Assembly (NCBI GenBank): GCA_012960415.1
Contig: DUBH01000040.1
Span: 40,870-82,205, forward strand
Length of the DNA: 41,336 nt
Direction of reading: 5' to 3'
Source of the DNA: Henriciella sp.
Lineage (GTDB): Bacteria > Pseudomonadota > Alphaproteobacteria > Caulobacterales > Hyphomonadaceae
The position numbers were made by a program, and so were the translations under genes. The notes under the pieces are model-generated. The model was not told the origin of the DNA. It saw only the letters and a program-made list of their open reading frames with translations, and did not search any database. Positions within the stretch are counted from its first letter, which is position 1. The number at the start of each line of letters is the position of its first letter. This document shows positions 37,211-39,824 of the stretch, piece after piece.

Positions 37211-37957
37211 TCAAGCATCCGGTCGGCTTTCAGGGCCGCTATCAGTATCACTTTCAGGAATGGGAATAAGCCGGTCGACGAGTAGCGCAGCGGGCCAGAT
37301 GAAGCCCATGATCCAGCCGGAAAAGGCGTACATCGGCGTCCAGATTGCGCAGACGCCAGTGGCTGTAACAATGATAATCTGCACCCGAAAGATCCAGATG
37401 GATTGCCGCGTCATCGCGATCTCGCTCGCGCTCAGGCCGAGCAGTTCTGCCTTGTTCAGCGCATGAACGTACATCTGGCTGATGACGAGGTAGATGAGGC
37501 CATAGCCAAGCGCGAAGTAGCCCATGATAACGCCGGCTTCACGATAGCTGATCCCGGCCGCTTCCAGCCGGCTCCAGTCGCCCATGACGCCTTCGATATA
37601 GCCGTAGAGGCTGTCGAAAATGAAACGCAGCGGATAGGCGGTAAACAGGACCAGCAGGAGAAGAATGCAGTTTAAAAGGATGATGCGCCCGTCCGCGACG
37701 CCGTAGCGACGGAAGAAAACGTAGTGCGCATTCCAGATCATGAAGAGAATGGCGAACGCCGCCGTCACCGGGATGATCGTGAAAAGGTGAGAGGTCAGCT
37801 CATCGAACGTTTCTGGCCGCGCCGCTGACGAGACGATCATTCCGAGCGCGAGTGCGAAGACGATGTCGGACAGGTTCTCGATACGCGTGACCGATCCGCC
37901 GCGCCAGGTGAAACGTGGATCATGGTCCAGCTCTCGGCTGATCGTTTCGCGCAGCAT
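37211..37957 (-). CDS. TMEM175-like (DUF1211) membrane protein
   Basis: A 248-residue membrane protein with about six helices. The first helix carries TRIENLSDIVFALALGMIV, matching the TMEM175/DUF1211 signature R-x3-FSD-xVFAIAxTLL, with Leu in place of the Phe of FSD. The family forms potassium-selective or proton-permeable channels, and that Phe-Ser-Asp is structurally important, so the variant may alter the pore. Further helices include IIPVTAAFAILFMIWNAHYVFF and NCILLLLVLFTAYPLRFIF. The start at 37957 follows GGGGGAGCG; earlier in-frame codons lack one. It is divergent from the DUF305 gene with a 76-bp spacer. Confidence 0.72.
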   Translation of the reverse strand: MLRETISRELDHDPRFTWRGGSVTRIENLSDIVFALALGMIVSSAARPETFDELTSHLFTIIPVTAAFAILFMIWNAHYVFFRRYGVADGRIILLNCILLLLVLFTAYPLRFIFDSLYGYIEGVMGDWSRLEAAGISYREAGVIMGYFALGYGLIYLVISQMYVHALNKAELLGLSASEIAMTRQSIWIFRVQIIIVTATGVCAIWTPMYAFSGWIMGFIWPAALLVDRLIPIPESDTDSGPESRPDA

Positions 37958-38033
37958 CAACGCTCCCCCAGCTTGTTGGAACTTAGCGGAGCGCGACACC
38001 TTATCCAATAGGAAAGAAAGTGGAGGACAACTG

Positions 38034-38561
38034 ATGAATACTTCATCTTCCTATATCCGTTTCGGCGCGATGATACTGACGTCTATGGTCGTGATGTTCG
38101 CGCTGATGTATTTCAACACGTATGCTTTCGAGCATGTTCGCTGGAGCGAAACCCGGTTCTACATGACCTTGGTCATGGGCGGTGCGATGGCGATCGTCAT
38201 GCTTGGCCACATGCTGGGCATGTACAAGAACACCAAGGCGAACATCGCCATTTTTGCGGGTAGCGCGCTAATGCTTCTCGGAGCGCTCTATCTGGTCCGG
38301 AGCCAGTCCACCGTTGGCGACCGCTCATATATGAAAGCCATGATTCCCCACCACTCCATCGCCATCATGACGAGTGAGCGGTCGAATATTGAGGATGTAC
38401 GTGTGCGCGAGCTGGCAGACGGGATTATTCGGGCGCAGCGCAAGGAAATCAAAGAGATGAACTGGTTGATCTCCGACATCGCGGAGAATGGCGTTGCGTC
38501 GACCGCAGAAGAAGCTGAGGCGCGCCCGCTGCCGGAGTTTGAGGGAGAGCTTAACCCTTAG
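38034..38561 (+). CDS. DUF305 membrane protein
   Basis: A 175-residue protein with three N-terminal helices (about residues 8-28, 42-63 and 70-88) and a DUF305 C-terminal part: YMKAMIPHHSIAIMTSERS with His106-His107, and LADGIIRAQRKEIKEMNWLI. DUF305 is a ferritin-like bundle often encoded beside copper or heavy-metal resistance genes, with Met/His ligands; here M-x2-M-x3-HH is partly kept. TGGAGGACAACTG precedes the ATG. It converges on merR with overlapping stops (CTTAG), so the two genes are tightly packed. Confidence 0.85.
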   Translation: MNTSSSYIRFGAMILTSMVVMFALMYFNTYAFEHVRWSETRFYMTLVMGGAMAIVMLGHMLGMYKNTKANIAIFAGSALMLLGALYLVRSQSTVGDRSYMKAMIPHHSIAIMTSERSNIEDVRVRELADGIIRAQRKEIKEMNWLISDIAENGVASTAEEAEARPLPEFEGELNP

Positions 38562-38962
38562 TGATCAAAGGCGGTGAGTATGGGGCACGGGCCAGCAGGC
38601 CCCTCGGCGCAGGCGCTGGAAAGCTTGACCAGGCTGTGGCGCGCCTTCTGCAGCGCACTGATCTCTGCGTCGAGCGCTGCAAGCCTTTCCTCTGCGATTT
38701 CCCGGGCGCGGCGTCTGTCCTGACTTGCATCGAGTTCGAGAAGTTCTTCGATTTGCGAAAGTGTGAATCCAGCGCGTTGGGCCGATCGAATGAACTGAAG
38801 CGTTTTCAGATCGTTGGGATTGTAGCGTCTAACCGTCCTTGTATGAGCCTGGTGAGGGGGCGTTTCTGGAACCTGGAGCAGACCCCGGCGCTGATAATAT
38901 CGGATGGTTTCTACGCCAACGCCGCCAGCCTCGGCGAGTTGGCCTATCGTCATATCATTCAT
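38558..38962 (-). CDS. MerR-family regulator close to mercury-type MerR
   Basis: A 134-residue MerR protein (counting from ATG 38962). The winged helix has TIGQLAEAGGVGVETIRYYQ, RRGLLQVPE, RRYNPNDLKTLQFIRSAQRA and GFTLSQIEELLEL, close to Tn21-type MerR. A dimerisation helix and the metal-binding loop follow: Cys118 in SSACAEG and Cys126 in GPCPIL, matching Cys117 and Cys126 of MerR. The third ligand, Cys82 of MerR, falls in DASQDRRRA and is absent. It could therefore respond to another metal or to thiol stress. GGAG precedes the ATG and overlaps the -35 of the divergent gene. Starts at 38953 and 38980 are also possible. Confidence 0.88.
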   Translation of the reverse strand: MNDMTIGQLAEAGGVGVETIRYYQRRGLLQVPETPPHQAHTRTVRRYNPNDLKTLQFIRSAQRAGFTLSQIEELLELDASQDRRRAREIAEERLAALDAEISALQKARHSLVKLSSACAEGPAGPCPILTAFDH

Positions 38963-38965
38963 CTC

Positions 38966-38999
38966 TTGACTCCGTACCATGGTACAGACCCGATATAAG
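38966..38999 (+). promoter_or_regulatory. merO-like operator-promoter between merR and the Grx-MauE gene
   Basis: TTGACTCCGTACCATGGTAC starts at 38966. It holds a -35 (TTGACT), then the perfect palindrome GTACCATGGTAC (38974-38985), and TATAAG at 38994-38999 as a -10 with a long spacer (22 bp), or GATATA at 38992 with 20 bp. MerR regulators act on promoters with 19-20-bp spacers and GTAC-centred dyads, and the Tn21 mer promoter also begins TTGACTCCGTAC. The same site overlaps the merR ribosome binding site, suggesting autoregulation. Confidence 0.75.
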
Positions 39000-39035
39000 G
39001 GTCATGTACCGCACTCAAAGGAAGTTGTGACACCA

Positions 39036-39824
39036 ATGTCTGACGCAGTGAAAGAACATGACCCGGCAAGTGGCCCCGCCGAACGCAGTGGACCCAACAA
39101 GGCCGTTCTCTACCGGATGGTGATGGACAAGCACATCTGCCCGTTCGGCCTGAAATCGCGCGACCTGTTGAAGCGCGAAGGGTTCGATATCGAGGACAAT
39201 CACCTCACAACCCGTGAGGAAACCGACGCCTTCAAGCAGCAGTATGACGTCAAGACGACGCCGCAAACCTGGATTAATGGGGAGCGGATTGGCGGGCATG
39301 ACGATCTTCGCCGGCACTTCGGCAAGTCGACGGCCGCTGACAAGGAAGGCAGGACCAGCTACACGCCAGTGATTGCGATTTTCGCGACCTCTTTCCTGAT
39401 GGCGCTAGCAGTGAGCTTTTTCGCGTCCGGGACGATCTTCACTTTCCGCGCGATTGAACTGTTCATCGCGATCGCGATGTGTGTGCTCGCCATTCAGAAG
39501 CTGCAGGATCTGACCGCTTTCCAGAACCAGTTCCTTGGCTATGACCTGCTCGCCCAGCGCGATGTGAGATACGCTTTCGTGTATCCCTTCGCCGAAGCCT
39601 TTGCAGGCATCCTGATGATTGCGGGGGCGCTGATCTGGCTCGCGGCGCCTGTCGCCATCTTCATCGGCTCGATTGGTGCGGTATCGGTCTTCAAGGCCGT
39701 TTATATCGACAAGCGGGAGCTTAAATGCGCCTGCGTCGGTGGCAATTCAAATGTCCCGCTCGGCTTCGTATCGCTGACAGAGAATCTCATGATGATCGCG
39801 ATGGGCCTCTGGATGCTGTTCTGA
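39036..39824 (+). CDS. Glutaredoxin-MauE fusion membrane protein
   Basis: A 262-residue protein. Residues about 22-95 form a monothiol-type glutaredoxin (Cys35 in HICPFGLKSRD, cis-Pro in TTPQTWINGERIGG). Four membrane helices of a MauE/DoxX type follow, from ASGTIFTFRAIELFIAIAMCVL, with a cysteine pair Cys231/Cys233 in ELKCACVGG. This joins a cytosolic thiol donor to a membrane thiol-redox relay, as in methylamine-utilisation MauE and DsbD-like routes. The ATG at 39036 lies 13 nt from AAGGA; a GTG at 39027 is closer to it and may be used instead. It faces merR across the merO-like site, so it is the likely regulated gene. Confidence 0.85.
   Translation: MSDAVKEHDPASGPAERSGPNKAVLYRMVMDKHICPFGLKSRDLLKREGFDIEDNHLTTREETDAFKQQYDVKTTPQTWINGERIGGHDDLRRHFGKSTAADKEGRTSYTPVIAIFATSFLMALAVSFFASGTIFTFRAIELFIAIAMCVLAIQKLQDLTAFQNQFLGYDLLAQRDVRYAFVYPFAEAFAGILMIAGALIWLAAPVAIFIGSIGAVSVFKAVYIDKRELKCACVGGNSNVPLGFVSLTENLMMIAMGLWMLF

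Follow-up and report, generated by a model that had tools for sequence, protein, structure and literature searches.

MerR-family regulators activate transcription by distorting the DNA, and their choice between +1 and +2 ions is set mainly by a residue inserted from the other subunit; in CueR, Cu+ is held linearly by two cysteines (excerpts of PMC9909328). In the mercury regulator MerR, Hg(II) receives its third sulfur from Cys82 of the other subunit; in the C82Y variant dimerisation and mercury affinity are seriously affected (excerpts of PMC5027573). Among the described systems close to the one reported here is SmGrx3 (SMa0280) of S. meliloti, for which the excerpts of PMC6315971 report low deglutathionylation activity, no mutant phenotype and an unresolved role, with the inducing condition given as ‘HS’, which we read as heat shock. 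A further relevant protein is CopM, a copper-binding, copper-induced protein that contains two DUF305 domains and HH motifs (excerpts of PMC4335983).

The locus described here lies in a window of 41,336 nucleotides, i.e. the whole stretch of Henriciella sp. DNA that was analysed. An earlier reading of this DNA from its letters alone (the sequence-only reading) placed a MerR protein opposite a glutaredoxin-MauE (Grx-MauE) fusion across a mer-type site with a perfect GTAC dyad, and our gene models, the TTGACT element at 38966 and the dyad agree with this arrangement (Table 1). The merR and grx-mauE genes are divergent with start codons 73 bases apart, where the Grx-MauE start is our pick of the best start. 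The chosen MerR start puts the two cysteines at C118 and C126. Another possible MerR start, an ATG at 38980, sits inside the dyad, and therefore the N-terminal extension ‘MVRSQ’ would be translated operator; where gene finders start MerR at this position, the extra residues are probably an artefact of annotation. The same in-frame reading of the operator (window 38963-38980) is also present in two other loci, L048 and L130. On the far side, a gene for a TMEM175-type channel protein (37211-38008, minus strand; PF06736, 40.9 bits against a cut-off of 25) is divergent to the DUF305 gene.

Table 1. Genes and promoter elements of the merR/grx-mauE locus in window coordinates.
Feature	Position	Strand	Basis
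DUF305 membrane protein (HH motif)	38034-38561	+	Pfam 39.3 bits, cut-off 27
MerR-family regulator, 134 aa	38558-38962	-	MerR_1 60.8 bits; start inferred
Grx-MauE fusion, 262 aa	39036-39824	+	Glutaredoxin 24.4 bits, cut-off 22.9; MauE 42.9 bits, cut-off 27
-35 element TTGACT of the Grx-MauE promoter	38966-38971	+	Sequence, conserved sites
Candidate operator, perfect dyad GTACCATGGTAC between -35 and -10	38974-38985	+	Sequence, conserved sites
Likely -10 element GATATA	38992-38997	+	20-bp spacer inferred rather than 19

Conservation of the arrangement was assessed at 89 Grx-MauE loci, consisting of the window, the best 80 of 414 relatives from a scan of genome contigs, and eight plasmid regions hand-picked among the matches listed (40 of 298 records). 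Among named genomes, the closest relatives of the window Grx-MauE were found in Henriciella, with up to 93% identity (best 80 of 414 relatives). A MerR of this kind was called when it adjoined Grx-MauE, was divergent to it and matched by tblastn with E <1e-30, which was the case at 23 loci. The best match to TTGACTCCGTACCATGGTACGGA near the Grx-MauE start had 0-5 mismatches at all 23 of these (three or fewer at 22), and 9-12 mismatches of 23 bases at the 66 loci without the regulator. Operator and MerR thus co-occurred at 23/23 versus 0/66 loci (Fisher p ~1e-21, ignoring relatedness; the loci were collected by similarity to the window proteins and are not independent). In the family of the window, the Hyphomonadaceae, 30 of 61 genomes contain Grx-MauE, at 33 places, and one locus per genome was fetched, omitting three second copies; MerR and the operator (four mismatches or fewer) were present together at 12 of the 30 loci and neither (eight mismatches or more) at the other 18. 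Both the conservation of the dyad upstream of Grx-MauE genes with MerR and that of the gene pair in related genomes, on which the sequence-only reading had staked its proposal, were therefore found.

The link was also examined starting from the regulator. A profile search of 385 genomes of the class gave six members above 170 bits, the window's included, with the next match at 121 bits. Five of the six adjoin Grx-MauE; the sixth (L130) has an exact operator, which is followed by a short stretch resembling the MauE C-terminus (VSLTENVMMVAKAAW, E 1e-4). Among 17 plasmid copies, chosen from the matches listed (50 of 72) with S. meliloti omitted, the operator was found within five mismatches in 17/17, with Grx-MauE adjoining in 16 (one cut by the record end). 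The pSymA record of S. meliloti strain 1021 carries the same Grx-MauE fusion (with a CPYG site, whereas the window has CPFG) and the same divergent MerR, with the operator adjoining the fusion gene at two mismatches. The stretch carries no locus tags, and we infer from the domains and the replicon that this gene is SMa0280. The regulator is not mentioned in the excerpts of PMC6315971. Taken together, the comparison makes the linkage of regulator, operator and target very probable and, judged from sequence, indicates that MerR and Grx-MauE are a real, conserved and narrowly defined regulatory pair. We found no publication on this pair among the matches listed in the open-licence PMC literature and, likewise in open-licence PMC papers, one on SMa0280 and none on SMa0278, SMa0279, SMa0281 or SMa0282. 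The statement in the sequence-only reading that no function has been described was nearly right, except that SmGrx3 has been studied, with no role found in the excerpts of PMC6315971.

The regulator could instead be a leftover of a mer operon that has since been lost, with no current selective function. Within the genus or family, a number of loci lack it, and L130 retains it beside a gene remnant. However, operator, -10 region, loop cysteines and target are conserved across the alphaproteobacteria and in Luteimonas (L067), and we regard a leftover as highly improbable. A plasmid of Paracoccus yeei (L179, 4196-5378) carries a MerR of this clade with the same operator; the surroundings are a copper island, and no Grx-MauE was matched. 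The gene that follows the operator bears the annotation PhnD-like protein, although by eye its start seems to resemble that of ArsH.

The promoter region was then compared with known MerR targets. TTGACTCCGTACC begins at 38966. The window contains a single copy of the 12-bp dyad, which was absent from all of 100 window shuffles. The 20-base pattern TTGACTCCGTACNNNNGTAC has one exact copy in the 3.5-Mb genome and four further places with three mismatches; its reversed control has 16 places. Over 51 distinct sites, TTGACT lies on one side of the dyad GTAC-YATG-GTAC and a TATAT-like element on the other. Conservation of the 23-mer is partly selected, since sites were kept at five mismatches or fewer; the -10 region is not part of the 23-mer by which sites were chosen, and its conservation (A 51, T 47, A 46, T 42) is not due to selection. 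The A aligned to 38993 is invariant, and because it takes the second place of the -10 element in 51/51 sites, the spacer would be 20 bp. These features are the anatomy of promoters controlled by MerR, in which the spacer is over-long, and by analogy with the family, Grx-MauE would be activated by DNA distortion. The operator type, TTGACTCCGTAC-N4-GTACGG, is shared with alphaproteobacterial mer operons and presumably with the Tn21 mer promoter. True mer operons retrieved in the same searches had the same kind of operator with two or fewer mismatches (L131, L132, L136, L138, L139), whereas two CueR loci (L082, L083) had no mer-type operator, the best matches having five and six mismatches. A looser operator search (17-mer, two mismatches) was discarded: it matched 232/385 genomes, by eye (not summed) no commoner than the reversed control.

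As the next step, we aimed to place the regulator within the MerR family. It belongs to the superfamily by its MerR HTH (60.8 versus a cut-off of 21.6 bits) and MerR-DNA-bind (52.9 versus 25.4 bits) domains in Pfam, and it scores below the cut-offs of both the mercury MerR model TIGR02051 (93.9 versus 150.85 bits) and the CueR model TIGR02044 (79.1 versus 147.4 bits). A profile search of the PDB ranked Tn501 MerR (5crl) first with 120.9 bits, followed by Bacillus MerR (89.5), CadR (80) and CueR (78). In a maximum-likelihood tree of 53 proteins, 27 clade members, i.e. 26 beside Grx-MauE and L130, with the near-copy L064 of L048 left out of alignment and tree, formed a single branch (97/95). The Tn501-type MerR was its sister (94/89, just below the support mark of the tree tool), and the CueRs, five of whose eight rows were labelled by us from Ser77 and likeness, were separate (100/100); long-branch warnings concerned Bac_MerR, CadR, CueR, L129 and others. 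Thus, when aligned with metal-specific clades, the regulator falls into a clade of its own beside Tn501-type MerR and away from CueR.

The metal ligands set this clade apart from its sister. As the sequence-only reading had noticed, C118 and C126 are present and the Cys82 equivalent is absent: the window protein has Arg83 at this position, and only two cysteines remain. Among the 27 clade members, the Cys82 column contains Arg in 26 and His in one, never Cys, and both loop cysteines (C117/C126 columns) are present in 27/27; by eye, His also occurs at this column in two plasmid members outside the 27 (L179, L182). Two of the three ligands of Tn501/Tn21-type MerR are therefore kept. The loop cysteines are separated by seven residues in 26/27 members and by six in L130, one residue shorter in the typical case (C-x7-C) than in Tn501 MerR with eight, and equal to CueR with seven. 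The clade also resembles CueR in a loop ending in CPI, in the lack of a third cysteine and in plasmid copies with copper-gene neighbours, but it differs in Arg versus Ser77, in its separate branch and in its operator. With two loop cysteines, Cys82 replaced and the CueR precedent for the inserted residue, a monovalent thiophilic ion would be the expected ligand. We found no characterised precedent for Arg at the Cys82/Ser77 place, which counts against Cu+ or Ag+. Two other MerRs with mer-type operators, from genomes of the class, also lack Cys82 (Thr in L137, which by eye is followed by a CcdA-like membrane protein; Ser in L133). Loss of the third ligand may have occurred several times.

These relationships bear on whether the protein could be a sensor of mercury or organomercury with two of three ligands, driving an accessory resistance gene. 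Its nearest relatives are the Tn501-type MerRs, and its operator is as in real mer operons (e.g. L131, L138). Nevertheless, Cys82 is missing throughout the clade, the target is Grx-MauE whereas that of mer is merTPA, and the absence of mer transport and reductase genes stated in the sequence-only reading extends to all loci: merA or merT was found within 5 kb of Grx-MauE (7 kb on plasmids) at 0/89 loci and near 0/17 plasmid copies. These zeros are meaningful because the mer queries (from L139 and L131) also match L132, L136 and L138. The window genome contains a separate mer cluster (contig C31, 15288-18377) with MerA above the cut-off and, by eye, MerT- and MerP-like genes and its own MerR-family gene; the GTAC-type operator is absent from this cluster. 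Membership of the locus in a mercury operon was accordingly rejected, and a mercury sensor appears quite improbable.

We next searched the neighbourhoods for copper and heavy-metal genes. Matches within 5 kb (7 kb on plasmids) occurred at 31/66 loci without MerR and 4/23 with it, counts in which two of the 31 (L055, L085) and three of the four are RND-only matches, RND (CusA) matches may not be copper-specific, P-type ATPase matches may be other metals, and eight of the 66 loci match by construction as the source of the queries (L018, L023, L029, L062, L083, L084, L087, L089). Within 1.5 kb, the numbers were 15/66 without MerR, 1/23 with it and 0/30 in control stretches (up to 3 kb, from other genomes, replicon unmatched). 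Of the 17 plasmid copies with MerR, nine lie near copper-type or RND genes, one near DUF305 only and seven near neither. Among the genes annotated beside these nine copies are those for copper resistance B, multicopper oxidase, CopC/CopD, DUF411, DUF305 and copper-binding proteins; two (L180, L187) rest on RND matches and an annotated copper-binding protein. A further clade locus (L128) has CopB and DUF411 matches, and the S. meliloti records L086 and L145, examined separately, gave no metal-gene matches. The window genome encodes three copper-type ATPases above the cut-off and has no TIGR02044 match above that for CueR. The metal- or thiol-stress response proposed in the sequence-only reading thus stands as a metal-stress setting, refined by the neighbours to copper rather than mercury.

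Based on these observations we propose a two-gene switch, to which we assign a probability of about 0.5. A dimeric MerR of mer lineage would occupy the dyad, between -35 and -10 elements that are spaced too widely, and keep the Grx-MauE promoter shut. Cu+ or Ag+ held by C118 and C126 would then cause the regulator to twist the DNA and turn the promoter on, as in MerR and CueR. With a basic residue in place of Cys82, the site would be one sulfur ligand short of the mercury type, which should make +2 ions less favoured. The linkage, conservation and clade come from sequence; the DNA distortion, the inducer and the enzyme reaction are part of the proposal, and for Cu+ or Ag+ as inducer the odds are even. 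The sister position to mercury MerR rather than CueR, chromosomal copies mostly without copper-type or RND genes nearby, and the SmGrx3 mutant without a phenotype, its gene listed under ‘HS’ (excerpts of PMC6315971), count against these ions.

Some of the same observations would suit a sensor of thiol redox state or electrophiles, in which a C118-C126 disulfide or modification replaces the metal ligand and the glutaredoxin repairs thiols. The constant target is a glutaredoxin-type protein, the regulator has only two cysteines, 19/23 MerR loci are without a copper or heavy-metal query match within 5-7 kb, and SmGrx3 is listed under ‘HS’ (excerpts of PMC6315971). Yet the GPCPI loop with its C-x7-C spacing resembles metal-binding MerRs, and the share of plasmid copies near copper-type or RND genes (9/17) points to metal; we consider a redox sensor unlikely.

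Under the proposed Cu+/Ag+ switch, the target would be a membrane-anchored monothiol glutaredoxin. The window protein is of the SmGrx3 type, with Grx and MauE domains above their cut-offs and a CP[FYW]G site (CPFG, monothiol, C35); this site is found in 88/89 fusions, with CPAG in L089. C35, C231 and C233 are kept in all 89 fusions and C149 in 55; C231 and C233 lie in a CACVGG or CACAGG motif. An AlphaFold model from 36 sequences (mean pLDDT 80.7, pTM 0.63) shows a glutaredoxin-like part followed by five long helices (110-131, 137-157, 182-196, 200-224 and 243-261), with the CAC loop at 225-242. By helix count, this loop would be on the same side as Grx if Grx is cytoplasmic, so that C35, C231 and C233 are all predicted to share one membrane face. 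The transmembrane thiol relay suggested in the sequence-only reading was rejected since no conserved cysteine lies on the predicted outer side, unless the topology is inverted or a quinone participates. A Foldseek search of the PDB with the model gave no match at E <=0.001 (best E 3.6e-3); the 50 matches listed were of glutaredoxin/thioredoxin fold or GST-like, with no MauE-type membrane protein among them.

With the CAC pair on the same, cytoplasmic face, Grx-MauE would under copper stress most likely act at the inner membrane, resolving thiols that carry glutathione or copper; this thiol repair is our tentative assignment. A rather doubtful extension is that the clade represents a third selectivity class of MerR proteins, mer-descended, with a positive residue for the third cysteine, a monovalent dithiolate site and one target that removes or hands over copper-glutathione; if true, copper-thiol detoxification would have a route that does not depend on efflux. 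For the glutaredoxin family of SmGrx3, the pair described here supplies a defined regulator, the exact promoter and a probable class of inducer, so that the function of Grx-MauE can be tested directly. The clade also offers a natural experiment in MerR metal choice, in which a mercury-like operator and fold are combined with a basic residue in place of the third ligand cysteine.

DUF305, which the sequence-only reading had included in the module, is indeed present but does not belong to its core. The gene and merR converge with their 3' ends facing each other, and with merR in between, the DUF305 start is about 0.9 kb away from the operator. The divergent promoter can therefore serve only MerR and Grx-MauE, and DUF305 is out of its reach. 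At H. algicola (L047) and Henriciella sp. NORP34 (L004), neither MerR nor DUF305 was matched, and Grx-MauE is kept between like neighbours. DUF305 was found at 4/23 MerR loci, the window and three Henriciella, and was not matched at L006, where MerR is present. Within 1.5 kb, it occurred at 30/66 loci without MerR, 4/23 with it (34/89 overall) and 0/30 controls. Like CopM, the window protein contains an HH motif (H106-H107), but it scores 40.2 bits against a cut-off of 90 in the CopM model NF049983 and passes only the DUF305 Pfam model. DUF305 is a copper-island companion and not part of the switch.

Finally, the grx-mauE leaders were folded at 50 sites (the 51 minus L179). A conserved RNA hairpin was rejected for the window, with z +1.0 there and a mean z of -0.79 over the 50 leaders; the hairpin is strong in some Rhizobiaceae. 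The SmGrx3 leader of S. meliloti 1021 pSymA (L145, ~2430-2480) forms a long hairpin (z -5.1), whose loop contains the Shine-Dalgarno sequence and whose stem includes the AUG, and its relatives L181, L191 and L192 reach z -2.3 to -3.2. Given this hairpin and the listing of the gene under ‘HS’, the SmGrx3 leader could be an RNA thermometer.
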